NCBI GenBank assembly: GCA_902519435.1
Contig: CABYKC010000005.1
Span: 1-51,269 of the forward strand
Reading direction: 5' to 3'
DNA from: an uncultured Alphaproteobacteria bacterium
Lineage (GTDB): Bacteria; Pseudomonadota; Alphaproteobacteria; HIMB59; GCA-002718135
DNA: 51,269 bases
Part shown: positions 9,438-39,509 of the stretch, piece by piece
How the letters are laid out: each line of letters starts with the position of its first letter
Numbering within the stretch: the stretch's first letter is position 1
Notes under the pieces: model-generated
Database searches by the model: none
What the model was told of the DNA's origin: nothing
The model's input: only the letters and a program-made list of their open reading frames with translations
Made by a program: the position numbers and the translations under genes

Positions 9438-9578
9438 TATAATTATGGAAGGAATAATCCTACCCACCGCTTCTTTTTCTTTTAATATAAAAAGACTTAT
9501 GACAGCGGCTAAAACTAGTTGGTTTTATATCTAAATCGATATAGATACCATCGATAAGGCTACAATTTTTAAAGATAT
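9438..9578 (+). promoter_or_regulatory. Putative phnA promoter and long 5' leader
   Basis: The 232-base gap between the zinc-finger gene and phnA is large for this window. A TATAAT at 9438-9443 would start transcription near 9450 and leave a leader of about 128 bases, with a pyrimidine-rich stretch (9468-9482) and a short ORF at 9499-9534. Further upstream at 9388-9405 there is TTTAGTC-ATTT-TTTAAGT, a weak match to the 7-4-7 repeat seen before other genes here, but it is too far from this -10. I recognise no known riboswitch. Confidence 0.35.
9499..9534 (+). other. Eleven-codon upstream ORF resembling the phnA start
   Basis: ATG followed by ten codons and TAA encodes MTAAKTSWFYI. Its first four codons repeat those of phnA (MTAA), and TATGACAGC-GCTA is shared at the two starts 80 bases apart. 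It could be a leader peptide, a decoy start, or simply a remnant of a local duplication. No ribosome-binding site is evident. Confidence 0.3.
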
Positions 9579-10823
9579 ATGACAGCAGCTATAGAAGTTA
9601 ATGATAGGATTTATCCTGGAATTCTTAAATCAACAGCAATTGTAATATGTTTAGACGGAAGTCAAAAAGAATATTTTGAAGAGGCATCAAAGCTTAAATT
9701 AACACCAAACATTGACTCTTTAAAAAAAAATGGAGAAGACCTGTTAGTTAATAGTGCTATACCTAGTTTTACTAACCCAAATAATATATCGATAGTCACT
9801 GGAAGACCAAGTTCGATTCATGGCATTTGTGGAAATTTTTTTTACACCCCATCTACAGGTGAAGAAGTGATGATGAATGATCCTAAATTTTTAAGAGCCC
9901 CAACAATTTTTCAAAAATATTATGAGTCTGGAGCTAAGATAGCAATTGTCACTGCTAAAGATAAACTTCGTAAGTTACTTTCCCACGGACTTGCATTTAA
10001 TGATGCAAGGGCAATATGTTTTTCTTCAGAAAAATCTGATCAAGTGTCATTAAATGAAAATGGTATTGAGGAAGTTAATGAATGGCTAGGAATGGAAGTG
10101 CCAGAAGTATATTCACAAGGACTCTCTGAGTTTGTAATGGCTGCGGGAGTAAAACTACTTCATGAATTTAAACCTGATATAATGTATTTATCTACAACAG
10201 ATTTTATTCAACACAAATATGCACCAGGTGAAGAAGTGGCCAACACTTTTTATGCTATGTTTGATAAGTATATTGGTGAATTAAATACTAATAATAATTC
10301 AATAATAATAACAGCAGATCACGGCATGCAACCCAAATCAAAATCTGATGGGACACCAAATGCCATTTACTTACAGGACATTCTCGATGCGAAACTTGGA
10401 AAAAACGAATCAAAGGTTATTTTACCTATCACAGATCCATATGTCGTACATCATGGAGCTCTAGGTTCTTTTGCAACAATATATTTGTCTGATAAATCGA
10501 TGATAAATCATGCAATTTCAGAAATAAAAAAATTTGATGACATTGAAATTGTATTAACAAATGATGTTGCATGTGAAAAATATCATTTACCTCAGGATAG
10601 AATGGGAGATATAATATGTATGAGCTCTAAATACATGACAATAGGCTCATCAGAAACAGCTCATGATTTTACAAACCTAAAAGAACCTCTCCGTTCGCAT
10701 GGTGGTTTACATGAAAGAGAGGTACCATTTATTTCTAATAAAAAAATTACATCACTAGAAAGTACTGATAAGTTAAATAATTATGATGCTTTCTATTATG
10801 CATTAGAAGGAGCAACTTCATGA
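9579..10823 (+). CDS. phnA: Phosphonoacetate hydrolase
   Basis: A zinc enzyme of the alkaline-phosphatase superfamily that splits phosphonoacetate into acetate and phosphate, the last step of the PhnW-PhnY-PhnA route for 2-aminoethylphosphonate. The 414 residues match the family length. Visible metal and catalytic residues are Asp26, the nucleophile Thr65 in PSFTNPNN, Asp210 and His214 (DFIQH), Asp249-His250 (ADHG) and a C-terminal HGGLH (His376/His380); Lys127 and Lys129 match in position the pair that binds substrate in the studied enzyme. It overlaps phnY by 4 bases, confirming the pathway assignment. A nucleotide pyrophosphatase is the main alternative but would lack the phnY partner. Confidence 0.92.
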
Positions 10824-12259
10824 ATAAGACTATTATTCATCAACCTATGAGAATAGCAGGAAAAAAAATTGAAACTGAAACAACTATCAATGTCCATTAT
10901 CCATACACGAATGAAGTAATAGGGACAGTCCCAGCTGGGAACGCACAGCATGCAAAAGATGCTATAAACATTGCAGCTAACTATAAACCAAACTTAACAC
11001 GTTATGAACGACAACAAATTCTTCAAAAAACTGCAGAAGAATTAGTGCGTAGGAAAGAAGAAATATCAGATATTATTACACTTGAGCTTGGCATATCAAA
11101 ACAAGACTCCTTGTACGAGGTTGGAAGAGCGTTTGATGTTTTTTCCTTAACTGCTCAATTATGTATTTTAGATGACGGGGAAATATTTTCTTGTGATTTA
11201 ACACCTCATGGTAAGGCTAGAAAAATTTTTACAATAAGAGAGCCACTAAATGTAATTTCTGCCATTACACCTTTTAATCATCCTTTAAATATGGTTGCTC
11301 ATAAAATTGCTCCATCAATAGCGACAAATAACTGTACGGTTTGCAAACAAACAGAATTAACACCTATGACAGTAATGATTCTTGCAGATATTTTATATGA
11401 AGCAGGCCTGCCTCCAGAAATGTTTTCTGTAGTCACTGGATGGCCTCAAGACATTGGATTAGAAATGATTCAAAATCCAAATATTGATTTAATTACATTT
11501 ACTGGCAGCGTAGGTGTTGGAAAGTATATTGCTGAGCAAGCAGGTTACAAAAGAACTGTTCTTGAATTAGGAGGAAATGATCCCTTAATTGTTTTAGATG
11601 ATCTTGATGATGATGATTTAAAAAAAGCAGCGGACTTAGCTGTCACTGGTGCAACAAAAAACTCAGGACAACGTTGTACTGCAGTAAAAAGGATTTTGTG
11701 TCAGAAGAAAGTTGCTGACAAATTTGTTGAAATGGCTTTAGAAAGAGCTAAAAAAATTAAGTTTGGTGATCCAATGAACTTGGAGACAGACCTCGGTACA
11801 GTAGTAAATGCTGAAGCTGCTGAACTATTTGATAAGAGAGTATCAAAAGCAGAAGAAGATGGCGCAAAAATTTTATATCATCCTGGAAGAAATGGTGCTT
11901 TGTTACCTCCAATAGTGGTAGATAACGTTGATCCCAAAAGTGAATTAGTTTTAGAAGAAACATTTGGCCCAGTTATCCCAATAATTCGTGTTCCAAATGA
12001 TGATGATGAAGTAATGAAAATATCTAACTCAACAGCATTTGGATTATCATCTGGTGTATGTACTAATAACTTCATGAGAGCAAAAAAATATATTCAAGGT
12101 TTAAATGTTGGCACTGTAAATATTTGGGAGGTTCCAGGTTACAGAATTGAAATGTCTCCTTTTGGTGGAATTAAAGATTCTGGCTTGGGATACAAAGAGG
12201 GAGTTATTGAAGCTATGAAAAGTTTCACAAATGTTAAAACCTTTTCACTACCTTGGTAA
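10820..12259 (+). CDS. phnY: Phosphonoacetaldehyde dehydrogenase
   Basis: An NAD-dependent aldehyde dehydrogenase of 479 residues that oxidises phosphonoacetaldehyde to phosphonoacetate. Motifs in order: TPFNHPLN near 150-157 for cofactor binding, FTGSVGVG near 227-234, the general base Glu249 in LELGGN, and catalytic Cys286 in SGQRC. The ALDH family is certain; the substrate is inferred from the 4-base overlap with phnA and the presence of phnW nearby. Note that an unrelated oxygenase is also called PhnY in the PhnYZ pathway; this is the dehydrogenase. Confidence 0.9.
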
Positions 12260-12314
12260 AATCTAGTTTTAAAAACTTTCTAATTATGTGTAAAAGTAAT
12301 AATATTTACTTCTA

Positions 12315-13421
12315 ATGAAAAAAAATTTTAGATTTTATGACAATAGACAGAAATATTTATTGTTTGTAACCACTACAAATGAAAAGAATCAGATAGCTGA
12401 TGCAATTAGACCATATGTAAATAAAATAAAACCTCAAAAACCAGGTATAAAAATTTTTGATGCTGGTATGGGTGATGGATCACTGCTTATGAATGTTATG
12501 CGTCAATGTCATGTATCAAATTCAACTATTCCTCTCTTAGTTTCTACAAAAGAAATCAGTATTGAGGATGTTCGCCTTGGTTTAGAAAAATTACCTGATA
12601 GATTTATTGAGCATAAAAATACCGTTTTTGTTATTTCAAACTTACACTACGCAGAGGCTGCCAATCTTAAATCTAATAATTTACAAAAACAAAAAAAAAT
12701 TAATTGGCATGTAGTTAAATTAAAAGGAGATACTTCCATTGAATTTTCTCAACAATTAAGAAAACAGAATGAATTTTTAGAAAAAAAATGGAATATAGAA
12801 ATTAATAAAAAAACTGGGAATCCTACATATAAAGAACCATCTGTTATGGTTATCTATAGAGAGGATCAAGAGTTTAATGTTAATGAACTTATTCCAACCA
12901 AAAATAATTCAGAGAATAAGTTTGATTTAATTATTGCATCTCAACCTTATCGCTCAAGAATAACAGCAGAAAAAAAAGTAAGATATGTTATTGAGCCGAT
13001 GATCAAAGCACTAAAATCGAAGGGCAAATTACTTACAATTCATGCATCAGGAAAGGATCCTGCAAATGATATCATTAAAAAAATTTGGCCGAAAGAAGAC
13101 CCTTTTCCTTCTTTAGGAAATAGCATTATTGCTTATTTAAAGAAAAATTTAGATAAACAAATTTTACAAAAACTTTCATTTAAAGATAAAAAAAATATCA
13201 AATGTAAATTAAGAGCACTACCAAATGAAATAAGTGGAAGTATTGCTACTTCATTAATATTTTCAGCATGGAATGCTGCTATTTATGTCAATCAAATGGA
13301 TGATGACAAAGTAATGAAAGCTGAAAAGAAAAGTAATTATGAAAAAGTAGTTAAAAATATTGTTGCAAAAAATAAAGGCCTTTATTTTAATAACGAAATA
13401 TTTGTAATCGAAAAAAAATAA
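12315..13421 (+). CDS. Class I SAM-dependent methyltransferase-like protein, unknown substrate
   Basis: A 368-residue soluble protein. IKIFDAGMGDG near 45-55 is a good motif I for S-adenosylmethionine binding, and FDLIIASQPYRSR looks like motif IV, followed by a strand such as GKLLTIHASGKD; these support a Rossmann methyltransferase fold. The middle (about 100-190) is charged and lysine-rich. It lies 55 bases downstream of phnY on the same strand, so it is probably transcribed with the phosphonate genes, and abuts the convergent phosphodiesterase gene with 3 bases between. I do not recognise a characterised family; a role in aminoethylphosphonate or N-methyl derivatives is speculation. Confidence 0.65.
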   Translation: MKKNFRFYDNRQKYLLFVTTTNEKNQIADAIRPYVNKIKPQKPGIKIFDAGMGDGSLLMNVMRQCHVSNSTIPLLVSTKEISIEDVRLGLEKLPDRFIEHKNTVFVISNLHYAEAANLKSNNLQKQKKINWHVVKLKGDTSIEFSQQLRKQNEFLEKKWNIEINKKTGNPTYKEPSVMVIYREDQEFNVNELIPTKNNSENKFDLIIASQPYRSRITAEKKVRYVIEPMIKALKSKGKLLTIHASGKDPANDIIKKIWPKEDPFPSLGNSIIAYLKKNLDKQILQKLSFKDKKNIKCKLRALPNEISGSIATSLIFSAWNAAIYVNQMDDDKVMKAEKKSNYEKVVKNIVAKNKGLYFNNEIFVIEKK

Positions 13422-13424: not shown

Positions 13425-14219
13425 TTATTCAAACCAATTAACTTCAGTTTTTAAAAAATCTTCAGTATGAATTACTATTCCATTTTTATTTAAAATTGCT
13501 ACATTGTAATTTGGATCAGTATTAGCTAAACCAAGCCTATATTCAGATGTAAAATTTGGTATTAGAGGTGACCATGTGCTCCTTGGCGAGGAAAAACTTA
13601 TACCAAGATATGATCCGGAACTAGTAATATGCTGATGACCAAAAAAAATATGTTTAATATTTTTTTTACTAATCAATATTTCTTTAAATTCTTTTTTATG
13701 TTTTAATCCAATACCATCGCTTTCATCTCTAACCAGTGCCAATGGATTATGGTGCATAAATATATAAATTTCTTTATTATCATCTGTGTTATTTAAAAGA
13801 TCAATCAACCATTCTTGTCTTTTTAACGTATAATGACCAATGTGTGTTCCGTGCTCCAGAGTATCTATAAAAATAAATCTATTATTCTTATAGTCATCGT
13901 AGTATTGGATAAATCCATTACTATCAGTTGGCACATGATTTAAAGTTTTTTTAAAATTTTCACGATTGTCATGATTACCAGGTATTAGTTTTGGTTCAAG
14001 GTTTAGGGGTAGATTAAATTCTTTTATTATTTTTTTAAACAGATTGTAAGAATCTTCATCTCCAATGTCTGTTATATCACCAGTTATAGCAAACATATCT
14101 GCATCACGGTGATTTAAAACAATGTGTTCTAAAGCACATTTGAATCTTTCTACAGAGTTTATGCCAAATAATTCATTTGTATGAATATGGGGGTCAGAGA
14201 GGTGAATAATTTTCATCAT
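13425..14219 (-). CDS. GpdQ/CpdA-like metallophosphoesterase
   Basis: A 264-residue cytosolic phosphodiesterase without signal peptide. The dinuclear metal site is complete: DPH (Asp9, His11), GDITD, GNHD, MHHNP and FGHQH. This arrangement is shared by cyclic-AMP phosphodiesterase CpdA and the glycerophosphodiesterase GpdQ; total length is near GpdQ. It is divergent from the UgpB-like binding-protein gene across 141 bases, which favours a glycerophosphodiester role: cleaving imported diesters to release glycerol and a phosphoester or phosphonate. That role is inferred from context. Confidence 0.8.
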   Translation of the reverse strand: MMKIIHLSDPHIHTNELFGINSVERFKCALEHIVLNHRDADMFAITGDITDIGDEDSYNLFKKIIKEFNLPLNLEPKLIPGNHDNRENFKKTLNHVPTDSNGFIQYYDDYKNNRFIFIDTLEHGTHIGHYTLKRQEWLIDLLNNTDDNKEIYIFMHHNPLALVRDESDGIGLKHKKEFKEILISKKNIKHIFFGHQHITSSGSYLGISFSSPRSTWSPLIPNFTSEYRLGLANTDPNYNVAILNKNGIVIHTEDFLKTEVNWFE

Positions 14220-14283: not shown

Positions 14284-14311
14284 TTTGTTAAAATTTAACA
14301 AAATATTAATA
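14284..14311 (+). promoter_or_regulatory. Palindrome and candidate Pho-type box between divergent phosphodiesterase and ugpB-like genes
   Basis: TTTGTTAAA-A-TTTAACAAA at 14284-14302 is a perfect inverted repeat with a one-base centre. Its right arm starts a 7-4-7 direct repeat, TTTAACA-AAAT-ATTAATA (14294-14311), resembling boxes at 21157 and 22105. The palindrome puts a TTTAACA half-site on both strands, so it could serve both genes. The ugpB-like gene has a clear AGGAG ribosome site at 14349-14353. Binding protein unknown; PhoB is my guess. Confidence 0.4.
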
Positions 14312-14360: not shown

Positions 14361-15635
14361 ATGAATATAATTAAATTACTTATTATCTCTTTAACCGTGG
14401 TAATAACATCATTAAGTGTAAGGGCTATTGACCTAGAATTTTATTTTCCAGTCGCTGTAGGTGGTGGAGCTGCTCAGGCAATTGAAAAATTTGCAGAAGA
14501 TTACACAAAATTAAATCCAGATGTAAATGTGAAAGCTGTTTTCACAGGAAGTTATACAGATACAGATACTAAATTTCTAACAGCATGTAAATCTGGAACA
14601 GCTCCTGCAACATCAGTTATGATTGCTGTTACAATTTTTAAATATATAGACGAAGAATGTGTAATGGCTTGGGACGATATATTAACTCAAGACGAAATTG
14701 ATAATTGGATAGGTGGTTTTTATCCTGCTTTTATGGCTAATGGTCAAGTTGATGGTAAAACTTATGGGATTCCATTTCAAAGATCAACACCAGTACTCTA
14801 TTACAATAAGGATGCTTTTAGAGCTGCGGGATTAGATCCTGAAAATCCACCTAAGACTTGGGATGAACAGCTAGAAGTTGCAAAAAAATTAACAATCAAA
14901 GATTCTGATGGAAATGTAAGTCAATACGGAATAAGAATTCCATCTGCTGGTTTTCCATACTGGTTATTTAGTGCAATTGTTTATGGCAATGGTGGAAAAA
15001 TTATGAACGATAATGGCACTGAAACATATATTAATTCACCAGAAGCCATTGAAGCATTAGAAAAACTTGTAGCTCTTAGTACTACTGAAGGGGTGATGAG
15101 ACCAGGTATACTTGAATGGGGATCTACTCCACAGGCATTTTTTGAGGGTCAAACTGCAATGATGTGGACTACTACTGGAAATCTGACAAACGTCAGAAAT
15201 AATGCTCCGTTTGATTGGGGTGTAGCTTTCATTCCTGGTATTAAACAATTTGGAGCACCAGTTGGAGGAGGAAATTTTTATCTATCAATTGACACTACAG
15301 AAGAGGAACAGCAAGCAACAAAAGACTTTGTAAAATGGATAACAGAACCTAAACAGTCTGTTGCCTGGACAAAAGCCACTGGTTATGTTGCACCTAGAGC
15401 TGAGACTTGGGAGTCTGATGAAATGAAAGAATTTTTAAAAGAATTTCCATATCCAGCTGTTGCAAGAGATCAGTTGGAGTATGCAGGTCCAGAATTTTCG
15501 ACCTACGAGCAACCTAAAACTGTTTCAATTTTTAATAGAGCGTTAGAAGCAGCAGTTGCTGGGGAAAAAGATCCTAAAACTGCTCTTTTAGAGGCGCATG
15601 CCGAAATTGATAAAATACTAAAAGATTACAGATAA
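14361..15635 (+). CDS. UgpB-like ABC transporter substrate-binding protein (family 1)
   Basis: A 424-residue periplasmic binding protein with a signal peptide (about residues 1-22). It shares with UgpB the block STPVLYYNKDAFRAAGLDPE near 140-160, followed by NPPKTW, and TGNLTNVR, so it belongs to the glycerol-3-phosphate/sugar-binding family 1. A ligand such as glycerol-3-phosphate, a glycerophosphodiester or a phosphonate derivative is suggested by the neighbouring GpdQ-like and phn genes but cannot be read from the sequence. It has a strong ribosome site and is followed by a terminator, then the two permease genes. No ATPase gene is nearby. Confidence 0.85.
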   Translation: MNIIKLLIISLTVVITSLSVRAIDLEFYFPVAVGGGAAQAIEKFAEDYTKLNPDVNVKAVFTGSYTDTDTKFLTACKSGTAPATSVMIAVTIFKYIDEECVMAWDDILTQDEIDNWIGGFYPAFMANGQVDGKTYGIPFQRSTPVLYYNKDAFRAAGLDPENPPKTWDEQLEVAKKLTIKDSDGNVSQYGIRIPSAGFPYWLFSAIVYGNGGKIMNDNGTETYINSPEAIEALEKLVALSTTEGVMRPGILEWGSTPQAFFEGQTAMMWTTTGNLTNVRNNAPFDWGVAFIPGIKQFGAPVGGGNFYLSIDTTEEEQQATKDFVKWITEPKQSVAWTKATGYVAPRAETWESDEMKEFLKEFPYPAVARDQLEYAGPEFSTYEQPKTVSIFNRALEAAVAGEKDPKTALLEAHAEIDKILKDYR

Positions 15636-15647
15636 AGAAAAAATATC

Positions 15648-15682
15648 AAACGGCACTAGTTAATAATAGTGCCGTTTTTTTT
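15648..15682 (+). terminator. Intrinsic terminator between binding protein and permease genes
   Basis: A perfect 11-bp stem, AAACGGCACTA (15648-15658) and TAGTGCCGTTT (15667-15677), with an 8-base loop, runs into eight T residues (15675-15682). The permease ATG starts at 15683, directly after the T tract. It should act as a partial terminator, giving more binding protein than permease, and it leaves no normal ribosome site for the next gene. Confidence 0.9.
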
Positions 15683-16561
15683 ATGATAACTAAAATTAAA
15701 AAACATATACCAGTAATTTTACTTTTATCGCCTGGATTCATATTATTATTAACTTTTGTTCACATACCTGTTGTTAAAACAATTTATATGAGTTTTTTTT
15801 CTACTCCTAAAGGCAGAAAACCAAGTAAGTTTAAAGGTATTGAAAATTATGAACATATGTTTTCAGACCCCATTTTTTGGAAGGTTATGTCTAACAATAT
15901 TGTTTATGCAATTTCTACAATCCCATCTTCAATAATTATTGCAATAATTATGGCGCAATGGGTAAACAGCAAGTTACCCGGTAGACCATTGCTTCGTTTT
16001 GCATATTTTTTACCTGTAGTTTTACCCTTAATAGCTGTTGGTAATATATGGCTCTTTTTTTTTCTTCCTGGTTTTGGATTAATTGATCAAGTTGGATCTT
16101 TATTTGGTTTCCAAAATACAAATATTTTAGGAAACCCTGATCAAGTTTTATGGGGTATTATTGCTGTAAGTATTTGGAAAGAGTCTGGTTTTTACATGAT
16201 TTTTTTTCTAGCTGCTCTTCAAGGAATACCTAGGGAAATGAAAGAGGCAGCAATTATTGAAGGGGCTAATAGTTGGCAAATGTTTTACAAAATTACACTA
16301 CCAATGATAACACCAACCTTATTATTTGTTTCAGTCAATGCAGTAATTACTGCCTTTACACGAATAGAACATTTATTCACTATGACTGGTGGAGGTCCAA
16401 ATTACAACAGCGCTTTATTACTCTATTATATTTATGAGAATGGTTTTGAATTTTGGGATACAGCATACGCAATAACATTATCGGTTTTACTAATTATATT
16501 ATTGTCAATAATAGGAATTGGTCAAATTTTTTTATTGGATAGAAAGGTCCATTACCAATAA
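15683..16561 (+). CDS. UgpA-like ABC transporter permease
   Basis: A 292-residue inner-membrane protein with about six helices. The cytoplasmic EAA loop that contacts the ATPase is visible as KEAAIIEGANSWQMFYKITLP. N-terminal LLLSPGFILLLTFVHIP is typical of MalF/UgpA-type sugar permeases. It pairs with the next permease 2 bases downstream and with the binding protein upstream. The start codon touches the terminator T tract, so translation must start with little or no ribosome site or by read-through RNA. Confidence 0.9.
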   Translation: MITKIKKHIPVILLLSPGFILLLTFVHIPVVKTIYMSFFSTPKGRKPSKFKGIENYEHMFSDPIFWKVMSNNIVYAISTIPSSIIIAIIMAQWVNSKLPGRPLLRFAYFLPVVLPLIAVGNIWLFFFLPGFGLIDQVGSLFGFQNTNILGNPDQVLWGIIAVSIWKESGFYMIFFLAALQGIPREMKEAAIIEGANSWQMFYKITLPMITPTLLFVSVNAVITAFTRIEHLFTMTGGGPNYNSALLLYYIYENGFEFWDTAYAITLSVLLIILLSIIGIGQIFLLDRKVHYQ

Positions 16562-16563
16562 AA

Positions 16564-17373
16564 ATGTATTCATTCTATAAAAATATTAATATTATTGGTG
16601 CTTGGTTACTTGGATTTTTATGGTTACTACCGCTCTTATATGCAATCTGGGCTTCGATACACCCAATAGAATATCAAGTTAAATTTGATTTGTTTGCCCC
16701 TCTGACCTTATACAATTTTGAAAATGCTTGGTCACAAGCTCCTTTTGCAAGATATATGTTCAACACATTTATATACGTTACAATGACCACTTCATGCCAG
16801 TTTATCTTATGTTCTCTGACTGCATTTGCTTTTGCAAGATATGAGTTTCCTTTTAAGAACATACTTTTTGGATTAGTTTTAATTCAACTAATGATTAATC
16901 CAGAAATCATTCTTATCGAAAATTATAAAACAATTAAATTCTTAAATTTGATAGATACCATTCCTGCAATTAGCCTTCCCTACATTGCATCTGCTTTTGG
17001 AATTTTTGTTTTAAGACAAGCTTTCAAAACTGTTCCAAAAGAGCTAGATGATTCTGCGAGGATTGATGGTGCTGGAGCATTACGAATTTTATGGCATGTT
17101 TACATACCATTATCTATACCTACTTTTTTAGCTTATGGACTTGTATCAATATCTTATCATTGGAATAATTATTTGTGGCCTTTAATAATAACTAACTCAG
17201 AGGAAACTAGAATTTTAAATGTTGGTTTAGCTATCTTTTCTATGGAGGAATCAGGTATCGAGTGGGCTACTATAAGCGCAGGGACATTAATGGTAACCGC
17301 ACCACTAATAATTGCATTTATTATTTTTCAAAGACAGTTTGTAGAGAGTTTTGCAACTTCGGGTATAAAATAA
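16564..17373 (+). CDS. UgpE-like ABC transporter permease
   Basis: A 269-residue inner-membrane permease of the MalG/UgpE type with about six helices and the EAA-loop variant LDDSARIDGAGALRILWHVYIP. It forms a heterodimer with the preceding permease. The ABC ATPase partner (UgpC/MsmK type) is not encoded in this window, so a shared ATPase elsewhere must drive uptake. It converges with the AllA-like gene, 11 bases between stops. Confidence 0.9.
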   Translation: MYSFYKNINIIGAWLLGFLWLLPLLYAIWASIHPIEYQVKFDLFAPLTLYNFENAWSQAPFARYMFNTFIYVTMTTSCQFILCSLTAFAFARYEFPFKNILFGLVLIQLMINPEIILIENYKTIKFLNLIDTIPAISLPYIASAFGIFVLRQAFKTVPKELDDSARIDGAGALRILWHVYIPLSIPTFLAYGLVSISYHWNNYLWPLIITNSEETRILNVGLAIFSMEESGIEWATISAGTLMVTAPLIIAFIIFQRQFVESFATSGIK

Positions 17374-21130: not shown

Positions 21131-21156
21131 TTTTTTATTTCTCCTTTTTCGAGTAC

Positions 21157-22047: not shown

Positions 22048-22104
22048 TACGTCTGTAAAAAAACAATTTTCATTTCAATTTTTACCCCTTTTTTTTATCA
22101 TGCC

Positions 22105-25914: not shown

Positions 25915-25922
25915 TTCTATTT

Positions 25923-31954: not shown

Positions 31955-32039
31955 TAATTAAAGATTTTTCTTATACATAAAAGTATCATTTTATAATACA
32001 ATTTATTATTATATGTGTGTATTGTATAAAAATAACAGT

Positions 32040-32540
32040 ATGACGCAGAAAATTTGGTTTAAAAAAAAATCACCCCTTCACGGTTCTGGATTATTTGCAA
32101 AAATGAATATTAAAAAAGGCCAGAAAATAATCCAATATATTGGTGATAAAGTTACTAAAAGAGAGGGTGACAAAAGAGCAGATAAACAAATCCGCAAAGC
32201 AAAAAAAGATAAAAATAACGGCATGGTCTATGTTTTTGAACTAAACAAGCGATATGACATTGACGGTGATGTCGATTATAATTTTGCAAAATTTATAAAT
32301 CATTCATGCAATCCTAATTGTGAAGTAGACATCATAGATAATGAGATTTGGATTTCTTCTATTAAACGAATAAAAAAAGGAGATGAACTTTTCTATAACT
32401 ATGGTTATCCTTTTGATACAGATTTTGAGGATCACATTTGTAAGTGTGGTTCTAGAAATTGTGTAGGTTATATTTTAAGTGACAATGATTGGCCAAAATT
32501 AAAAAAATATGAAAAAAAAATTAAGACTAAGTCTAAGTAA
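32040..32540 (+). CDS. SET-domain protein lysine methyltransferase with post-SET zinc site
   Basis: A 166-residue protein. The SET core is complete: HGSGLFA near 14-20, NHSCNPNC at 87-94, YNYGY at 119-123, then a post-SET CKCGSRNC (Cys134, Cys136, Cys141) that with Cys90 could bind zinc, as in eukaryotic-type enzymes. Bacterial members methylate lysine on unknown proteins. An in-frame ATG at 32013 is an alternative start; a TATAAT lies at 31992-31997. Its 3' end overlaps phoR by 32 bases, so translation of the two is linked. Confidence 0.83.
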   Translation: MTQKIWFKKKSPLHGSGLFAKMNIKKGQKIIQYIGDKVTKREGDKRADKQIRKAKKDKNNGMVYVFELNKRYDIDGDVDYNFAKFINHSCNPNCEVDIIDNEIWISSIKRIKKGDELFYNYGYPFDTDFEDHICKCGSRNCVGYILSDNDWPKLKKYEKKIKTKSK

Positions 32541-33561
32541 GATACCTTCGATTATTATTGCAATTGATACAAATAAGGAAATAATTTTTTACAATAATGC
32601 AGCTAAACAAAAATTTTTATTTATCGATGAAGGAAGAGATCTCAATAATATTATTAGATCAACAGAGTTAAATACTTTTATTGATAAAGCCTTTAGGGAG
32701 AAAGAAGATTTTAAGTTTGAATTCACCCCATCTAATTTTAGTGATATGTATTTTATTGCTGACTTAATATTTGTTGAAAAAGATTATGAAGAATTATTAA
32801 TATCACTAAATGATCAAAGTCTTCTTAAAAACTACGAACAAATGCGAACAGATTTTGTGGCTAATGTAAGCCATGAATTGAGAACTCCTCTTTCCTCAAT
32901 TCTAGGCTATGTTGAAACAATTAAAAATTCACTCAATGAAGATAAGAACAAAGACAAAACGGTTGGTAAATTTTTAGATACAATGGAAGATCAGGCTTGG
33001 CGTATGACTAGACTAGTCGAAGATTTATTATTACTAAGTAAATATGAGACTGAAGATAAACCTATAGAATTTCAAGAAGCGAATATAAGGCAATTAATTG
33101 ATGGCGTAGTTGATAATTTACAAAACAAGTTAATGGCAAAAAAAATTGAAGTTCAAATCAAGGATGATTTTGATAAGTCTACAATATCAGCAAACAAAGA
33201 TGCTCTAATTCAAGTTTTTTTAAACTTAACCGATAATGCAATAAAATATAGTAAAGAAAATTCTACTATTGGTATTGAGATTGAGGGAGTCATTAATGAC
33301 AATAACGCCTTTTGCCAAATAAGTTTTATAGATAACGGAGAAGGTATATCAAAAGAGCATTTAACTAGACTTACTGAAAGATTTTATAGAGTAGATAAAA
33401 ATAGATCTCGAAATCAAGGCGGTACGGGTTTGGGTTTATCTATTGTTAAACATATAACTAATAGGCATAATGGTAAATTATCAATAAAAAGCAAGGTGGA
33501 TAAGGGTTCAACATTTACTATTTCTTTACCTGTAATTCAGCAAACTGTAATAAATCCTTAA
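32509..33561 (+). CDS. phoR: PhoR-like phosphate sensor histidine kinase
   Basis: A 350-residue kinase: an N-terminal PAS-like domain (about 10-100), a dimerisation domain with FVANVSHELRTPL (phosphorylated His122), N box NLTDNAIKYS, and G boxes DNGEGIS and GTGLGLSIV. It would phosphorylate PhoB (38826) in response to Pst-PhoU signals. I see no membrane helix, although PhoR normally has one or two, so this form looks soluble. It starts inside the SET gene; a later start would cut the PAS domain. Confidence 0.9.
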   Translation: MKKKLRLSLSKIPSIIIAIDTNKEIIFYNNAAKQKFLFIDEGRDLNNIIRSTELNTFIDKAFREKEDFKFEFTPSNFSDMYFIADLIFVEKDYEELLISLNDQSLLKNYEQMRTDFVANVSHELRTPLSSILGYVETIKNSLNEDKNKDKTVGKFLDTMEDQAWRMTRLVEDLLLLSKYETEDKPIEFQEANIRQLIDGVVDNLQNKLMAKKIEVQIKDDFDKSTISANKDALIQVFLNLTDNAIKYSKENSTIGIEIEGVINDNNAFCQISFIDNGEGISKEHLTRLTERFYRVDKNRSRNQGGTGLGLSIVKHITNRHNGKLSIKSKVDKGSTFTISLPVIQQTVINP

Positions 33562-33569
33562 TATATAAT
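33530..33569 (+). promoter_or_regulatory. Possible pstS promoter inside the phoR end
   Basis: TATAAT at 33564-33569 lies in a suitable place upstream of pstS. CTGTAAT occurs at 33530-33536 and again at 33545-33551, close to the classical Pho half-site CTGTCAT, but the spacing is 15 bases, not 11. A local promoter is likely because binding protein must be made in excess; the operator is uncertain. Confidence 0.35.
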
Positions 33570-33603
33570 CTTTAGTAATACCTTATTTTAAATGAGGCTA
33601 AAT

Positions 33604-34599
33604 ATGAAAAATATAATTAAATTAATTGCTGTCCTTGCTTTATTTGGAACTACTTCAGTTTCAGCAAGAGACTATATTTCAATTGTAGGATCTTCTACAG
33701 TTTATCCTTTCGCTACTTTAGTTGCTGAAAAAATGGCATCTCAAGGAATGAAAGCACCCGTAATTGAATCAACTGGTTCTGGTGGAGGACACAAATTATT
33801 TTGTGCAGGTGTTGGAGTTGAACATCCAGATATCACTAACTCTTCAAGAGCACAAAAAGATAAAGAATTCAAACTTTGCCAAGATGGCGGTGTAACCGAT
33901 ATCATCGAAGTTAGAGTTGGTAATGATGGTATAGCTTTTGCATACGCTGCAGATTATGAATGGAAATATACCAACGGTGCTACAATGAAAGGTGGCATTG
34001 ATTTAAGTAAAGAAGAAATCTGGCAGGCAATGGCTAGAGATAATGCAGACGCTCCAACAACTTGGTATGAAATAGATAAAAGATTACCAAAAGTTGAAAT
34101 TTCTATTATGGCACCTCCTCCAACTTCTGGAACAAGAGATGCATTTGACTCACTTGTAATGAAAAAGGGTTGTGTTAAAGATATGTTAGTTGCTGATGGT
34201 GATTGTCAAGCATATCGTGAAGATGGCCACGTTATCGAAGGTGGTGAAAATGATGAACTTTATGTTGAGCATATAACCAAAGAACAAGGTGCATTTGGTA
34301 TTTTTGGTTACAGTTTTGTATCTAATAACTCTGATAAAGTAAAAGCATCAATGATTAATGGTGTTGAAATCTCAATGGAAGGCATCCAAGATTATTCATA
34401 TCCAATAGCAAGACCTTTATTCTTCTACATCAAAAAAGCACACATTGGCGTTATTCCTGGTTTAATGGATTATGTTAATGAGTTTGTAAGTGAAGAAGCA
34501 ACAGAAGGTTACTTACTAGATGCTGGACTTGTTCAACTAAGTCCTGCGGATAGAGCAGCTGTTCTTGATGCTATTTCTAATCAAACAAATTATAAATAA
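33604..34599 (+). CDS. pstS: Phosphate ABC transporter substrate-binding protein
   Basis: A periplasmic phosphate-binding protein of 331 residues. I chose ATG 33604 (GAGG six bases upstream) over the in-frame ATG at 33592; the signal peptide then runs to about residue 21 (SVSA). Phosphate-site blocks are visible: VGSSTVYPFA, ESTGSGGGHK, TNSSRAQKD and PPPTSGTRDAF. It feeds PstCAB just downstream. A strong terminator follows its stop, as with the ugpB-like gene. Confidence 0.95.
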   Translation: MKNIIKLIAVLALFGTTSVSARDYISIVGSSTVYPFATLVAEKMASQGMKAPVIESTGSGGGHKLFCAGVGVEHPDITNSSRAQKDKEFKLCQDGGVTDIIEVRVGNDGIAFAYAADYEWKYTNGATMKGGIDLSKEEIWQAMARDNADAPTTWYEIDKRLPKVEISIMAPPPTSGTRDAFDSLVMKKGCVKDMLVADGDCQAYREDGHVIEGGENDELYVEHITKEQGAFGIFGYSFVSNNSDKVKASMINGVEISMEGIQDYSYPIARPLFFYIKKAHIGVIPGLMDYVNEFVSEEATEGYLLDAGLVQLSPADRAAVLDAISNQTNYK

Positions 34600-34621
34600 A
34601 AATCTTTAATTTTTATAAAAT

Positions 34622-34647
34622 GGGGGCATACAAGCCCCCTTTTTTTT
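34622..34647 (+). terminator. Intrinsic terminator between pstS and pstC
   Basis: GGGGGC (34622-34627) and GCCCCC (34634-34639) with a 6-base loop, followed by eight T residues. It is one of the few GC-rich spots in the window. It should hold pstC and later genes below pstS level. Confidence 0.92.
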
Positions 34648-34662
34648 AATAGTAAGTTATAA

Positions 34663-36036
34663 ATGTTCTTTTGGTCTTTAGTTTTAATTGCAGTCGGAAT
34701 TTTCTCATCCTTTATATACGGAAGATCAAGAATTAAATTAAACTCTAAAAAACAAGGTACGAAAAGCAAATCTCTTCCCAATTATTACGCACAATACGTT
34801 TTAATGTGGTGTTTGTTTCCTGCACTAATTGTTTATTTTTCATGGGCTATTTTTCAAGAACAGATTATTCAAAACATAGTTATTAGTAACTTTGAATTTA
34901 TTGAGGGCGCAGCTTACAACGAAGGTTTATTGTTAGCAGAGATTAGAAATGTTGCTAATAACCCTTCTTTTGCCGATGGTAAATCTGTAGAAATAATTAA
35001 TGCCGCATCTCAATATTCTTCCTTAAGACAAATAAGTCAAATAGCTTTTTATCTCTCAATAATCATTATAATGTTACTTGGAGCCCTATACGCTTCACGT
35101 AAATTAAAACCTGAATTTCATGCTCAACATGCAATTGAAAGATATATACAATATATACTTATATTTTGTTCATCTGTTGCTATTTTTACTACAATAGGAA
35201 TAGTTTTTTCACTAATATTTGAAAGCCTTCGCTTTTTTGCAGAAGTATCAATATTTGAATTTTTATTTAGTACTGAGTGGTATCCATTTATTCCAATTAG
35301 AGAAGGTCAAACAGCTGCAGAGGGATCCTTTGGTGCAGTACCAATATTTGCTGGGACATTTTTAGTAATGGTAGTAGCTATGTGTGTTGCGGCGCCTCTT
35401 GGATTATTAACAGCAATTTACTTAGCAGAATACGCAAGTCAAAGAGTTAGAAAAATAGTTAAACCTCTTCTCGAAATTTTGGCAGGGATACCAACAATAG
35501 TCTATGGGTTCTTTGCCTTTGTTAGTGTTGCGCCTTTCGTAAAAGCATTTGGACAATCAATTGGAATTGATGCTTCACCAACAAGCGCCCTTGCTGCTGG
35601 TATGGTAATGGGGGTTATGATTATTCCTTTTATTTCTTCTTTATCTGATGATGTAATAAACTCTGTCCCGCAAAGTCTAAGGGAAGGATCATTTGGTATT
35701 GGCGCTAATAAAGCAGAAACTATTAAAAAAGTAATTTTACCAGCAGCTTTACCTGGAATTGTAGGAGCATTTTTGTTAGCAATATCCAGAGCGATAGGGG
35801 AGACTATGATTGTTGTAGTTGCAGCAGGTACAGCTCCCAATCTTACAGGTAATCCTTTTGAAAATGTAACAACAGTTACAGTTCAAATTGTTGTGGCCTT
35901 AATAGGTGATCAAGAATTTGATAACCCAAGAACATTATCAGCATTTGCTTTAGGATTAGTTTTATTTGTTATTACATTATTTCTTAACATTATAGCTCTA
36001 CAAATTGTAAAGAGATACAGGGAGCGTTATGAATAA
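34663..36036 (+). CDS. pstC: Phosphate ABC transporter permease PstC
   Basis: A 457-residue inner-membrane permease, longer than the E. coli protein (about 319) because of an N-terminal extension with extra helices, a form common in alphaproteobacteria. The permease core with the EAA-like loop (REGSFGIGANKAETIKKVILP) and EYASQRVRKIVKP is clear. It pairs with PstA, whose start overlaps its stop by 8 bases. Confidence 0.93.
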   Translation: MFFWSLVLIAVGIFSSFIYGRSRIKLNSKKQGTKSKSLPNYYAQYVLMWCLFPALIVYFSWAIFQEQIIQNIVISNFEFIEGAAYNEGLLLAEIRNVANNPSFADGKSVEIINAASQYSSLRQISQIAFYLSIIIIMLLGALYASRKLKPEFHAQHAIERYIQYILIFCSSVAIFTTIGIVFSLIFESLRFFAEVSIFEFLFSTEWYPFIPIREGQTAAEGSFGAVPIFAGTFLVMVVAMCVAAPLGLLTAIYLAEYASQRVRKIVKPLLEILAGIPTIVYGFFAFVSVAPFVKAFGQSIGIDASPTSALAAGMVMGVMIIPFISSLSDDVINSVPQSLREGSFGIGANKAETIKKVILPAALPGIVGAFLLAISRAIGETMIVVVAAGTAPNLTGNPFENVTTVTVQIVVALIGDQEFDNPRTLSAFALGLVLFVITLFLNIIALQIVKRYRERYE

Positions 36037-37309
36037 TTCCGTTGCTAAAGAAAAAATTGTTTCTTTGAGAAAAAAGAGAAGTTTAGAAGATATGCGATTT
36101 AAGTATTATGGCTTTACAGCTATGTGTTTATCTTTAGCAGTTTTAGTTTTCCTTTTGTATACAATATTTTCAAAAGGATACACTGCTTTTCAAAAAACAA
36201 TTGTTCTCCTAGAAGTTGATTATAATCAAGAGGTCTTAAAACTAACACCTGACTCTTCAGATGAAGAGATGGAAAAAGGAAAATTTTTTAGAGTTAAAAA
36301 ACAGGCTATTGAAAATTTTTTCCCAGATCTCTCAAAATCAGATATTAAATTAATAAAAAAATTATTTTCTATAAATGTAGATAACGAAATTAAAGACTAC
36401 TTCTTAGAAAATCCTGAAGTCATTAATACAAAGCAACAAATTTGGGTAACTGCCCATAGTGATGTGGATCAACTATTAAAAGGTAATTCAAGAAGAGATG
36501 TGCCAGAAGATAGAAGAAAATTAAATGATATTCAATTAAGTTACGTAGATCAGTTAGTTGAAGAAAATAGAGTTAAACAAGTTTTTAATAATTTCTTTTT
36601 TACTAAAGCAGATTCAAGGCATCCTGAAATTGCTGGTGTAGCTGGTTCATTTATGGGATCATTATTTACTCTTTTTACTGTTTTTATTTTATCTTTTCCA
36701 ATTGCTATAGGAGCGTCTGTTTATCTTGAGGAATTTGCTCCAAAAAATAGAATAACTGAATTAATAGAAGTAAATATTTCAAATCTTGCAGCAGTCCCAT
36801 CAATAGTTTTTGGATTACTTGGGTTAGGTGTATTGCTTAATGTTTTTGGTCTTCCAAGGAGCACACCGTTAGTTGGAGGGTCCGTGTTAGCATTAATGAC
36901 GTTACCAACTATTATTATTGCCTGCCGAGCTTCATTGAAAGCTGTTCCTCCTTCAATTAAAGAAGGAGCGCTTGCAGTTGGAGCAACAAAAACACAAGCG
37001 GTATTTCATCATGTCGTACCCCTTGCACTACCAGGGACTTTAACAGGGACTATTATTGGATTAGCACAAGCATTAGGTGAAACAGCACCACTTATAATGA
37101 TTGGTATGATTGCATTTATTCCCAATATTCCAACTGGTTTAACAGAACCTTCAGCAGCACTTCCTGTTCAAATATATCTTTGGGTGGAAAGTGCAGAAAG
37201 AGGTTTTCAGGAAAAATCAGCTGCAGCCATAATGGTAATTTTAATATTTTTGTTTATGATGAACGCCATTGCAGTGTTCTTAAGAAATAGATTTGAAAGG
37301 AAGTGGTAA
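36029..37309 (+). CDS. pstA: Phosphate ABC transporter permease PstA
   Basis: A 426-residue permease with an enlarged N-terminal periplasmic region (about 60-200) between the first helix and the transport core, again the long alphaproteobacterial form. The EAA loop KEGALAVGATKTQAVFHHVVP and the helix following ALGETAPLIMIG are typical. Together with PstC it forms the phosphate channel. Confidence 0.93.
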   Translation: MNNSVAKEKIVSLRKKRSLEDMRFKYYGFTAMCLSLAVLVFLLYTIFSKGYTAFQKTIVLLEVDYNQEVLKLTPDSSDEEMEKGKFFRVKKQAIENFFPDLSKSDIKLIKKLFSINVDNEIKDYFLENPEVINTKQQIWVTAHSDVDQLLKGNSRRDVPEDRRKLNDIQLSYVDQLVEENRVKQVFNNFFFTKADSRHPEIAGVAGSFMGSLFTLFTVFILSFPIAIGASVYLEEFAPKNRITELIEVNISNLAAVPSIVFGLLGLGVLLNVFGLPRSTPLVGGSVLALMTLPTIIIACRASLKAVPPSIKEGALAVGATKTQAVFHHVVPLALPGTLTGTIIGLAQALGETAPLIMIGMIAFIPNIPTGLTEPSAALPVQIYLWVESAERGFQEKSAAAIMVILIFLFMMNAIAVFLRNRFERKW

Positions 37310-37312
37310 AAC

Positions 37313-38074
37313 ATGAGTAACTCTAAAATATTGGCAAATGGTGTAGATGTATATTATGGATCCAAACAAGCTCTTTTTGGAATCTCAATGGATATCAAGG
37401 AGAAAGAAGTTACGGCATTAATCGGTCCTTCAGGATGTGGTAAATCAACTTTCTTAAGATGTATAAACAGAATGAACGATTTAATCGAAATATGTAAAGT
37501 ATCTGGATCAATTAAAGTAGATAACGAAGAAATTATTAGTGAAAAAACCGATGTTGTAAGTCTAAGATCTAAAATTGGAATGGTATTTCAAAAACCAAAT
37601 CCTTTTCCTAAATCTATTTTTGATAATGTTGCTTACGGCCCAACTATACATGGTTTAGTTGACTCAAAAAATGAATTAGAAGAAATTGTACATTCATCAT
37701 TAAAAAAGGCAGGTCTATTTGATGAAGTAAAAGATCGATTAAATGAACCTGGAACAAGTTTATCAGGGGGTCAACAACAAAGATTATGTATTGCAAGAGC
37801 GATTGCTGTAAATCCTGAAATAATTTTAATGGATGAACCATGTTCCGCTCTTGATCCTATAGCAACTGCCATAATTGAAGAATTGATTGATGAATTGAGA
37901 CTAAACTATACAATTGTTATAGTGACACATTCTATGCAGCAAGCAGCAAGGGTATCGCAAAAAACTAGTTTTTTTCACCTAGGGGAATTAATTGAAACAG
38001 GTGATACAAAAAAAATATTTACTAATCCTGATAATTCAAAAACACAAGATTACATAACAGGGAGGTTTGGTTAA
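37313..38074 (+). CDS. pstB: Phosphate ABC transporter ATP-binding protein
   Basis: A 253-residue ATPase. Walker [10 protein letters not shown] (38-46), signature LSGGQQQRL, Walker [13 protein letters not shown] and the switch histidine in VTHSM are all present. It powers PstSCA phosphate uptake and takes part in PhoR signalling through PhoU. It starts 3 bases after pstA and shares one base with the phoU start. Confidence 0.97.
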
Positions 38075-38784
38075 TGGAACAAGACAAACATATTGTCAAA
38101 TCATATGATGAGGAGATCAAAGACATTAATAGTAAAATTTTAGAGATGGGAACTTTAGTTGAAAATCAATTAAAAGACTCACTTAATGCCTTAAAAAACC
38201 AAGATACCGAGCTGGCAGAAAAAGTAATTTTAAATGATGATTTAATTGACGATGCTTATAACAAACTTGATCAAAGCTTAGTTGAAATTTTAGGAAAGCG
38301 CCAACCAATGGCAACAGATTTGCGAACAATTTTCTCTGCTATCAAAATGAATAAAGATTTAGAGAGATTAGGAGACCACGCAACAAATATAGCAAAAAGA
38401 GCAGCTTTAACTGAATTAGTTTTACCTGAGAAACCTACAAGAGATATTATTAGAATGGGAGAGCTTGTTCATAAAATGATAGATCATGTAATAAAGGCTT
38501 TTTTAAATTTTTCCGATACTGAGGCTAAAAAAGTATGGTTAATGGATAGACAAATAGATGAAGAATATCTTGGTATTCTAAGACAATTATTAACCTACAT
38601 GATGGAAGATCCAAAGAGAATAGCTTCATGCACTAATCTTTTATATATGGTTAAAGATCTAGAAAGAATTGGTGATTATGTTCAAAATATAGCGGAAGAT
38701 ATCTATTATGCTGTATCAGGCGAACCATTAATTGATACAAATCCTAACCCAACTTGGGAAGCAATCTTACCAATAAAAAAATAA
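38074..38784 (+). CDS. phoU: Phosphate signalling regulator PhoU
   Basis: A 236-residue protein of two three-helix bundles. Each half carries the metal-binding ExxxD-type segment, here DLERLGDHATNIAKR and DLERIGDYVQNIAED. PhoU links the Pst transporter to PhoR and shuts off the Pho response when phosphate is ample. Start overlaps the pstB stop by one base. Confidence 0.96.
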   Translation: MEQDKHIVKSYDEEIKDINSKILEMGTLVENQLKDSLNALKNQDTELAEKVILNDDLIDDAYNKLDQSLVEILGKRQPMATDLRTIFSAIKMNKDLERLGDHATNIAKRAALTELVLPEKPTRDIIRMGELVHKMIDHVIKAFLNFSDTEAKKVWLMDRQIDEEYLGILRQLLTYMMEDPKRIASCTNLLYMVKDLERIGDYVQNIAEDIYYAVSGEPLIDTNPNPTWEAILPIKK

Positions 38785-38825
38785 ATTGTAATATAATTGA
38801 CACAAAAATTTAATAGAAGAGTTTC

Positions 38826-39509
38826 ATGAAACTTAAAATGCTTATCGTAGAAGATGAAGAAGCATTATTAGAACTTCTAAAATTTAATTTTAACAAAGAA
38901 GGATATAAAATAGATACTGCAACGGACGGTGAAACTGCTCTAGAAAAAATATTATATAAACCACCTGACATAATTATTCTTGATTGGATGTTACCAGAGT
39001 TATCAGGAATTGAACTCTGTCGAAGAATTAGAAAACATAAAGAACATAAAAATATTCCAATAATAATGTTAACAGCAAAAGGTGAAGAAGAAGATAAACT
39101 TCGCGGCTTAGAAACTGGTGCAGATGATTACATTACAAAACCTTTTTCAATTAACGAATTAGTGGCAAGAGTAAAAGCTGTTCTTCGACGAATTAGACCA
39201 ATGTTTGTAGATGAAGTTTTAACTTATAAAGGAATAGTAATTGACCTTGTATCTCACTCAGCATCACGAGATGGAGAAACTCTTCATCTTGGTCCAACAG
39301 AATTTAATTTATTAGCTTTCTTCATGGAAAATATTGGTCGTGTCTTTAGCCGCGAACAATTACTTAATCATGTTTGGAAAAATGAGGCCCATGTAGAACC
39401 TCGAACAGTTGATGTTCATATAAGAAGACTACGAAAGGCCATTAATAATGACGTAAAAGAAGATTTTATAAGAACCGTGAGATCAGCAGGATATTGTTTT
39501 GGCTCGTAA
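38826..39509 (+). CDS. phoB: Phosphate response regulator PhoB
   Basis: A 227-residue OmpR-family regulator. Receiver domain with acidic pocket (Glu9, Asp10), phosphorylated Asp53 in ILDWMLPE and the conserved lysine in DYITKPF; C-terminal winged helix with RTVDVHIRRLRKAI as recognition helix. It would be phosphorylated by PhoR and bind Pho boxes such as those proposed at 21157 and 22105. Last gene of the pst operon, 41 bases after phoU. Confidence 0.96.
   Translation: MKLKMLIVEDEEALLELLKFNFNKEGYKIDTATDGETALEKILYKPPDIIILDWMLPELSGIELCRRIRKHKEHKNIPIIMLTAKGEEEDKLRGLETGADDYITKPFSINELVARVKAVLRRIRPMFVDEVLTYKGIVIDLVSHSASRDGETLHLGPTEFNLLAFFMENIGRVFSREQLLNHVWKNEAHVEPRTVDVHIRRLRKAINNDVKEDFIRTVRSAGYCFGS

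Follow-up and report, generated by a model that had tools for sequence, protein, structure and literature searches.

Does a dense run of phosphorus genes beside a phosphate regulator form one starvation programme, or do distinct systems share a single stretch of DNA? This question is raised by contig CABYKC010000005.1 (assembly GCA_902519435.1) of an uncultured, free-living marine alphaproteobacterium, hereafter the window (the whole stretch analysed, 51,269 nt), whose positions 9438-39509 carry 31 open reading frames (ORFs, from the ORF list of the window) from phnA to phoB. The original prediction, made from the letters alone, had described these 30 kb as one phosphorus-scavenging locus in which nearly every gene serves phosphate starvation. 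The genes are present where it placed them, but their unity holds only in part, and u368, ugl, DUF6552, u476 and SET have no phosphorus function by family. We propose, with a probability of about 0.75, that two layers lie side by side: a core phosphonate block, and a modular, exchangeable phosphate-starvation island that occupies fixed places of the same stretch. The evidence, read from sequence, consists of gene content, positions, synteny, mosaic identity, repeat spacing, the mutual exclusion of Pst and a Pit-like gene, direct repeats and hybrid junctions.

A phosphonate block kept without the phosphate regulator

The first layer and its neighbours were called with Pfam and the equivalog cut-offs of NCBIfam (PstA and PstB were left out of the NCBIfam scoring):

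9579-10823, plus strand: phnA, phosphonoacetate hydrolase (TIGR02335, 469.5 bits, cut-off 407.55; PDB 3szy, E 2e-160)
10820-12259, plus strand: phnY, phosphonoacetaldehyde dehydrogenase (TIGR03250, 785.9 bits, cut-off 635.65)
12315-13421, plus strand: u368, no Pfam or NCBIfam match at 0.001, weak UPF0020 methyltransferase match (E 0.16)
13425-14219, minus strand: mpe1, metallophosphoesterase of the SpdA/GpdQ type (PF00149; PDB 2zo9, E 5.5e-17)
17385-18017, minus strand: ugl, ureidoglycolate-lyase-like gene (PF04115, 39.6 bits, cut-off 23)
18025-19122, minus strand: phnW, 2-aminoethylphosphonate transaminase (TIGR02326, 460 bits, cut-off 400.8)
19211-19786, plus strand: HD oxygenase of the PhnZ/TmpB type (TIGR03276, 202.8 bits, below the cut-off of 214.6; TmpB 6npa, E 3.6e-33)
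19787-20311, plus strand: DSP, dual-specificity phosphatase-like gene (PF22784)

The locus was read in 31 genomes, 26 from a family termed f1 and five from a family termed f2, within an order-wide survey of 150 genomes (90 from the window's genus) in which PhnA occurs in 113 and PstC in 96. These 31 loci are a non-random sample, as 18 of the f1 loci were chosen for carrying pst and phnA on one contig and 8 for lacking a strong PstC match (E below 1e-60; PstC counts include fragments in G023, G091 and G120). The genes phnA, phnY, ugl and phnW are found in all 26 f1 loci (rearranged in G065), 8 of which are without Pst, and the HD oxygenase and DSP in 24. Across the window's genus, phnA accompanies 52 of the 56 genomes with pst and 24 of the 25 with the Pit-like gene described below, and the block stays in its place in six fetched genomes that lack pst, phoR and an intact phoB.

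Synteny of the block with pst exceeds chance. Both PstC and PhnA were detected in 52 of the 90 genus genomes, on the same contig in 35, each time within ~31 kb, and on separate contigs in 17. In f2, 17 genomes carry the two on one contig, ~52-55 kb apart in 15 and ~12-19 kb apart in 2, and 5 further genomes carry them on separate contigs. The comparison across relatives that had been suggested for the locus therefore shows a gene order conserved in f1 and parts lying further apart in f2, not positions scattered in all relatives.

Around this core, ugl adjoins phnW in 26 of 26 f1 loci and is possibly an extra step of phosphonate use. By its motif, u368 is perhaps a class I methyltransferase. 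All four PDB matches of the HD oxygenase are TmpB or PhnZ; no PhyH-type (PhnY*) partner was found as a PF05721 match among the 31 ORFs of the region, and PhyH genes occur elsewhere in all seven genomes checked. The LysR family, to which AepR-type regulators belong, is absent among the 31 ORFs; an AepR neighbour is common, not universal, in the PhnWAY pathway.

Most f1 relatives (e.g. L049) carry a second ABC transporter 5' of phnA and, 3' of phnY, a binding protein, a MetE-like gene (PF01717) and an iron alcohol dehydrogenase (PF00465). This additional gene set, a candidate for 2-aminoethylphosphonate uptake, is missing from the window, from its closest relative in the collection (G001, with 57% of sampled 31-letter words in common), from G002 of the same genus and from G148. 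PhnA matches of 65-69% identity were also observed in 26 of 52 f2 genomes, e.g. G003 (L029) and G009 (L046). For the HIMB59 family, passages of a previous study report no phosphorus genes beyond flexible phosphate islands (fGIp) and list phnC, phnD and phnE as the Phn markers used (PMC10734472); if f2 is that family, its PhnA would add to this statement.

Exchangeable cassettes in fixed places

The second layer is made of cassettes whose presence or absence varies at fixed places across the f1 loci; they are listed here with the DUF6552 gene and the resident Agt2-PlcP2 pair beside them:

14361-17373, plus strand: ugp-like cassette, with a binding protein gene (sbp, 14361-15635) and permease genes permA and permB (15683-16561 and 16564-17373) (Pfam; UgpB 6x84, E 8.3e-31)
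20350-20577, plus strand: DUF6552 gene (PF20189)
20574-20993, plus strand: arsC-like gene (PF01451; TIGR02691, 92.5 bits, below the cut-off of 174.3; S. aureus-type ArsC 1lju, E 3.3e-17)
20991-21138, plus strand, ends approximate: left direct repeat, hairpin at 21076-21124 (fold z -3.5)
21205-22047, plus strand: acyl, OlsF/GlsA-related acyltransferase of the plcP cassette (PF19576; NCBIfam matches below cut-off)
22137-23567, plus strand: u476, plcP cassette, no Pfam or NCBIfam match, in 4 of 25 loci
23898-25696, plus strand: PlcP1-like phosphoesterase (23898-24704) and Agt1-like glycosyltransferase (24701-25696), plcP cassette (PF00149, PF13692/PF00534; top NCBIfam matches below cut-off)
25774-25922, plus strand, ends approximate: right direct repeat, hairpin at 25860-25907 (fold z -4.2)
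25923-28022, minus strand: ppk1, polyphosphate kinase (TIGR03705, 785.8 bits, cut-off 465.85)
28081-28539, minus strand: sixA-like phosphatase gene (PF00300; NCBIfam 48.9 of 74.5 bits, below cut-off)
28572-29477, plus strand: ppx, exopolyphosphatase (PF02541; NCBIfam 221.4 of 307 bits, below cut-off)
29474-30130, minus strand: mip, MIP channel (PF00230)
30151-31954, minus strand: Agt2-like (30151-31152) and PlcP2-like (31142-31954) genes (PF00534/PF13439, PF12850)

Exchange is suggested by a mosaic of DNA identities. G140 resembles the window at 72-84% in the flanks and the phosphonate block; across the genes that both have between DUF6552 and phoB, these included, identity rises to 93-97%, phoU excepted (79.5%). 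G099 and G122 reach 93-95% in acyl, ppk, sixA and ppx, amid surrounding genes at ~67-83%, with arsC at 92.9 and 86.0% and DUF6552 at 93.9 and 73.7%, respectively. In G029 and G047, sbp-permA-permB is 99.6-99.9% identical to the window, ugl and phnW 93-96% and u368 ~81%; mpe1 is 97-99.5% identical in these two genomes only and 66-73% elsewhere, so that the mpe1 allele of the window travels with the ugp-like cassette. This cassette was recovered in 11 of the 150 genomes; protein identity is 100% (rounded) in 8 of these, and one copy is a fragment.

Such near-identical cassettes between genomes whose neighbouring genes are less similar might also be expected of a conventional mobile element, i.e. 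an integrative element, a plasmid or a phage island. We consider this very improbable, as the window holds no tRNA gene, none of the 31 ORFs matches an integrase or transposase family above cut-off, and the cassettes sit in the same places across the family; passages of PMC10734472 likewise describe exchange without insertion sequences (IS) or tRNA at the borders.

The plcP cassette, from acyl to agt1, carries a trace of how it may be lost: it is bracketed by the two direct repeats, identical at 123 of 151 aligned positions. Known RNA families gave no match at gathering scores in 9000-40000. The hairpin is present in 58 copies on 53 stretches of the genome collection, all from uncultured alphaproteobacteria and all at this locus, lying between arsC and acyl (25), arsC and ppk (17), agt1 and ppk (13), agt1 and no further match (1), or arsC and an ABC gene (2). 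Among the 17 arsC-ppk copies, which are single (4 of them apparently also belong to the 31 locus genomes), six are hybrids whose letters are left-type at first and right-type further on, with at least two different switch points. These junctions fit a loss of the cassette by recombination between its repeats, which would leave just such sequences, and could also arise by gene conversion between strains.

The names of the individual cassette genes differ in their footing. The UgpB, UgpA and UgpE models of NCBIfam are the top matches of the three transporter genes, at 135 bits, below cut-offs of 411, 335 and 297; no UgpC ATPase adjoins them, and MalK-type ATPase domains occur elsewhere in all seven genomes. 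In the pst-less G057 and G067, the mpe1-ugl interval holds a different ABC transporter instead of the ugp-like cassette, and one gene of the interval reads, we assume, as a glycerophosphodiester phosphodiesterase. The PlcP and Agt names follow from family knowledge and PMC4796936. Relatives of the acidic u476 are annotated as right-handed beta-helix proteins, which speaks against a porin; the protein is predicted to be secreted, and Cys, Asp and Glu positions are invariant across 33 relatives. The genes arsC and mip are jointly present in 16 and jointly absent in 9 of 25 loci, and G022 has both without plcP, agt or ppk; arsenite export is therefore favoured over a glycerol role for the channel. 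The plcP2-agt2 pair was found in 4 of 6 pst-less loci, i.e. also in PhoB-less genomes. Beyond the region, G+C content drops to 23-25% at 44000-51000, compared with ~30-33% in most of the window.

One slot for Pst-PhoBR or a Pit-like permease

The regulator itself lies in an exchangeable position, between a SET-domain gene and murJ:

32013-32540, plus strand: SET-domain gene, left edge of the exchange slot (PF00856; in 25 of 25 loci)
32509-39509, plus strand: phoR-pstS-pstC-pstA-pstB-phoU-phoB, one allele of the slot (Pfam; PstC, PhoU and PhoB over NCBIfam cut-offs, PhoR at 303.4 of 334.2 bits and PstS at 122.7 of 206.6 below them)

Six of the eight f1 loci without a strong PstC match show this slot and lack pst, phoR and any intact phoB; in all six it is occupied by a 319-aa membrane protein distantly related to Pit. 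The protein of G020 has no PF01384 match, 5 of 120 relatives among the matches listed carry that domain, and against the resident Pit the slot protein gives a profile match of 75% over 179 columns (E 2.6e-5). In the order, Pst was detected in 96 and the Pit-like protein in 32 of 150 genomes, never both, and neither in 22, which may be incomplete (Fisher p 1.7e-18, on genomes that are non-independent). PhoB (E 1e-40) follows the Pst allele, being present in 86 of 96 genomes with pst and in 1 of 32 with the Pit-like gene (G114, 68% identical). A scan of 13 genomes for OmpR-type regulators gave a match of E 5e-26 or better in the six with pst and in none of six without; in G057 it is a fragment of 96 aa adjoining murJ, apparently left over from a lost Pst allele.

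On a tree of eight core genes from 25 loci (a set that omits G031 and G065, whose slot is off the fetched contig, and the f2 genomes G003, G009, G013, G017 and G040; columns filled to 19% in G122, 48% in G029 and 43% in G047), the slot state has changed 5 times or more, a number that shuffled labels give as well (mean 5.5). Of the 56 pst-carrying genomes of the genus, 46 (counted by pit) have a resident pit-DUF47 operon between DSP and DUF6552, which the window, G001 and G051 lack.

We tentatively suggest, at a little less than even chances, that the slot is a phosphate-sensing switch with two states, Pst together with PhoR-PhoB or a Pit-like permease by itself, between which lineages would flip repeatedly. 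Gaining the Pst allele in one recombination event would then bring both high-affinity uptake and the regulator of promoters with Pho boxes, a few of which already await it in PhoB-less strains (DUF47-pit), with satellite cassettes gained and shed around it, one of them framed by direct repeats that allow a clean loss. The window's lineage would also have lost pit-DUF47 and look committed to the Pst state.

In G063 and G067 (L053-L056), the slot holds further reading frames beside the Pit-like gene, which we take to resemble a zinc-uptake set (Zur- and ZnuB-like, in G063 also ZnuA-like), as if it took other nutrient cassettes too.

Pho-box-like repeats upstream of the cassettes

Whether the two layers share a regulator is addressed by a tandem repeat with an 11-bp period (unit consensus T[T/G]TAA[C/T]A, layout 7+4+7), which is found in the window at:

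14294-14311, plus strand: 5' of sbp, 12 of 14 matches (leave-one-out median p 0.011)
21157-21174, plus strand: 5' of acyl, perfect 14 of 14, with a weaker third unit at 21146
22094-22122, plus strand: 5' of u476, two overlapping repeats (three units), 13 of 14 each
23865-23882, plus strand: 5' of plcP1, 12 of 14, in 6 of 8 distinct upstream sequences
33546-33563, plus strand: 5' of pstS, degenerate, score 10.0 in the window, in 14 of 14 distinct upstream sequences
38798-38815, plus strand: weak, in the phoU-phoB gap 10 bp from the start codon, score 9.9 in the window, in 11 of 14 distinct upstream sequences

Identical upstream sequences count once in the leave-one-out and degenerate half-site results. 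Within 150 bp upstream, repeats with at least 13 of 14 matches occur in 11 of 11 sequences of acyl, 4 of 4 of u476 and 12 of 25 of DUF47, against 0.1% in Markov controls (some matches for gene 779, msrP, msrQ and pda, thousands of bases away and artefacts of edge-cut genes, were disregarded). Because the strict half-site TTTAACA was too narrow for pstS and phoB, it was replaced by a degenerate one, a widening decided after inspecting these two promoters. Searched over 120 bp upstream of acyl, u476, plcP1, sbp, DUF47, pstS and phoB, the degenerate form yields a sense repeat with spacer 4 in 56 of 62 distinct sequences; since genes and letters were picked after the repeat had been seen, which weakens the raw count, it is the spacing and orientation that carry weight. 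On the same 62 sequences, spacers of 1-3 and 5-8 give 0-3, antisense repeats with spacer 4 give 4, and the reversed pattern gives 0. A leave-one-gene-out matrix gave median p values of 0.0017-0.019 across the seven genes. By eye, no regular -10 box is clear below the repeats in such AT-rich DNA.

The same repeat is absent from all 131 upstream sequences of the phosphonate layer (phnA 0/21, phnY 0/20, phnW 0/19, HD 0/18, DSP 0/18, ugl 0/21, u368 0/14); several of these genes start inside operons, and the likely promoters, at phnA, phnW and HD, give 0/58. This bears directly on the possibility that the whole 30 kb, phosphonate block included, forms one unified Pho regulon under PhoB for phosphate scavenging. 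The conserved adjacency of block and pst in the family would suit it, as would the borderline value upstream of HD in one test (median p 0.013) and the statement that phnZ, unlike phnAWY, may serve phosphate acquisition (PMC9381506, in part). We nonetheless judge it unlikely, given that the block is retained where PhoB is absent, that its promoters lack the repeat, and that passages on marine bacteria describe phnAWY as phosphate-insensitive or unrelated to phosphate (PMC8316502, PMC9381506). The transferable Pho island of the original prediction thus survives for the flexible cassettes, with their variable presence at fixed places, mosaic identity and, upstream of several, Pho-box-like repeats, and does not extend to the phosphonate block.

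Several observations weigh against the division into a regulated island and an independent block. The motif has no genome-wide excess: the strict pattern (TTTAACA-N4-TTTAACA, at most one mismatch) matches 41 times in six pst-carrying genomes (16 in the island) and 30 times in six pst-less ones, and its reversed control 49 and 50 times; as the control is not exceeded, the signal sits in position. Four PhoB-less genomes (G018, G020, G057 and G083) have an intact DUF47-pit repeat, which has decayed in two others, G063 and G067. No repeat was found at ppk (0/7), arsC (0/9) or plcP2 (0/12), and mip has it in 1 of 10; it also occurs at fydln (6/22) and SET (3/20), and the leave-one-out median p of fydln (0.017) and of HD is as low as that of some trained genes. 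Finally, the other 11 of the 17 single hairpin copies are non-hybrid and right-type almost throughout, and may represent a pre-cassette state or a crossover further left. The repeat was also seen at murJ (2/12) and at the second binding protein beside phnY (4/15).

Alternatively, the repeats would belong to another regulator or to AT-rich promoters, with PhoB using sites unseen here and gene content alone uniting the island; the intact repeat in four PhoB-less genomes, the missing excess and the presence of further OmpR-type regulators in 13 of 13 scanned genomes all speak for it. The strict spacer of 4 and fixed orientation of the repeats speak against it, as do their positions upstream of Pst and of genes for lipid remodelling and, in a C-P lyase cluster, behind phnM. 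Outside the island there are 25 matches, of which 20 were inspected (4 of the other 5 share letters with an inspected one): 17 fall within reading frames, 1 overlaps a gene start and 2 lie between genes. One intergenic match separates two unrelated genes, and the other lies in G002 between phnM (over its NCBIfam cut-off) and the next gene, just behind phnM in a cluster whose order looks like phnG-phnM (names besides phnM putative). The 7+4+7 direct repeat is moreover the described Pho-box layout (PMC4415409, in part). We therefore give this alternative slightly less credence than the unified regulon, and retain the two-layer reading.

Relation to known systems

The grouping of such genes beside the regulator, held to be unusual by the original prediction, is already published for this order: Molina-Pardines et al. 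2023 described fGIp at pst in HIMB59/AEGEAN-169 and name parallels in Pelagibacterales and Prochlorococcus (PMC10734472, in part). Their version H corresponds to the window's flexible part. According to the passages available, version H shares with the window a pst operon with PhoR-PhoB, ppk, sixA, ppx, a GlpF-like channel and LpxH-, RfaG- and Wzb-like genes, no alkaline phosphatase and no diacylglycerol kinase (neither family is among the Pfam matches of the 31 ORFs), and an inserted core of glycosyltransferase, LpxH paralogue and methyltransferase (agt2, plcP2 and SET of the window). The window differs by its extra ugp-like cassette and u476 and by the absence of pit-DUF47. Our annotation suggests that the LpxH- and RfaG-like genes may be read as lipid-remodelling plcP and agt. 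That study looked for further genes in pst-containing genomes; its main text, as far as available, has no mention of phnA, phnW or Pho boxes and does not treat the phosphonate block, direct repeats or a Pit-like allele. Relative to these passages, the exclusion of Pst and Pit-like genes at one slot and the direct repeats and hybrid junctions of the plcP cassette appear new. Titles and abstract openings on HIMB59/AEGEAN-169 phosphonate or phosphate transport, the SAR11 Pho box, Pit/PstSCAB and Pelagibacter PhoB islands, a thin sample of the literature, likewise contain no Pst/Pit-like slot exchange and no flanking repeats.

The first layer resembles the PhnWAY pathway of marine Alphaproteobacteria, of which, in the parts consulted, PhnA and AepX production is substrate-inducible and phosphate-insensitive in isolates (PMC8316502) and phnAWY is unrelated to phosphate in ocean surveys, phnZ and C-P lyase being tied to phosphorus acquisition (PMC9381506). 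PhnW, PhnY and PhnA exceed their cut-offs in the window, and a core block free of Pho boxes fits phosphate-insensitive use. The window differs by having no LysR gene among its 31 ORFs, no transporter beside phnA (unlike most relatives) and an extra HD oxygenase whose PhyH-type partner is missing from the region.

A PlcP-like gene next to an Agt-like gene, under a predicted Pho box, recalls lipid remodelling in SAR11 and roseobacters, whose plcP clusters carry predicted Pho boxes (PMC4796936, in part). By contrast, the window has two such pairs, one resident and one in a removable cassette together with an acyltransferase and a beta-helix protein. The co-occurrence of an ArsC-like enzyme and a MIP channel is similar to AqpS-ArsC of Sinorhizobium meliloti (PMC6205960, in part); here ArsC is below its curated cut-off, and the two genes are not in one operon.

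A proposed mechanism and its implications

In the mechanism that we infer, PhoB binding, the response to phosphate, the substrates and the recombination events themselves are predicted from the arrangement above. The first layer (phnA, phnY, phnW, the PhnZ/TmpB-like oxygenase and neighbours) would, by family, convert 2-aminoethylphosphonate to acetate and phosphate and is most likely active regardless of phosphate supply. The second would comprise the ugp-like transporter, acyltransferase-u476-plcP-agt, arsC with ppk-sixA-ppx-mip, and phoR-pstSCAB-phoU-phoB. Under ample phosphate, Pst and PhoU would hold PhoR-PhoB silent; at low phosphate, PhoR-PhoB would bind the tandem units and switch on Pst, the acyltransferase-u476-plcP-agt cassette for lipid replacement and the ugp-like transporter, and ArsC and MIP would most likely clear the arsenate that enters through Pst. 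Strains would come to differ through swaps of alleles and cassettes by homologous recombination in shared flanks, and would lose the plcP cassette through its direct repeats.

Two uses of phosphorus that look like one locus are hereby told apart: a permanent use of phosphonate and an optional, regulated starvation programme. The direct repeats would provide a simple route to cassette loss without a mobile element. If the exchange between Pst-PhoBR and the Pit-like gene is true, the gain and loss of a whole regulon would be traceable at a single locus in one streamlined lineage of high abundance, and the slot allele that a population carries could be told from seawater counts of pstS or phoB.

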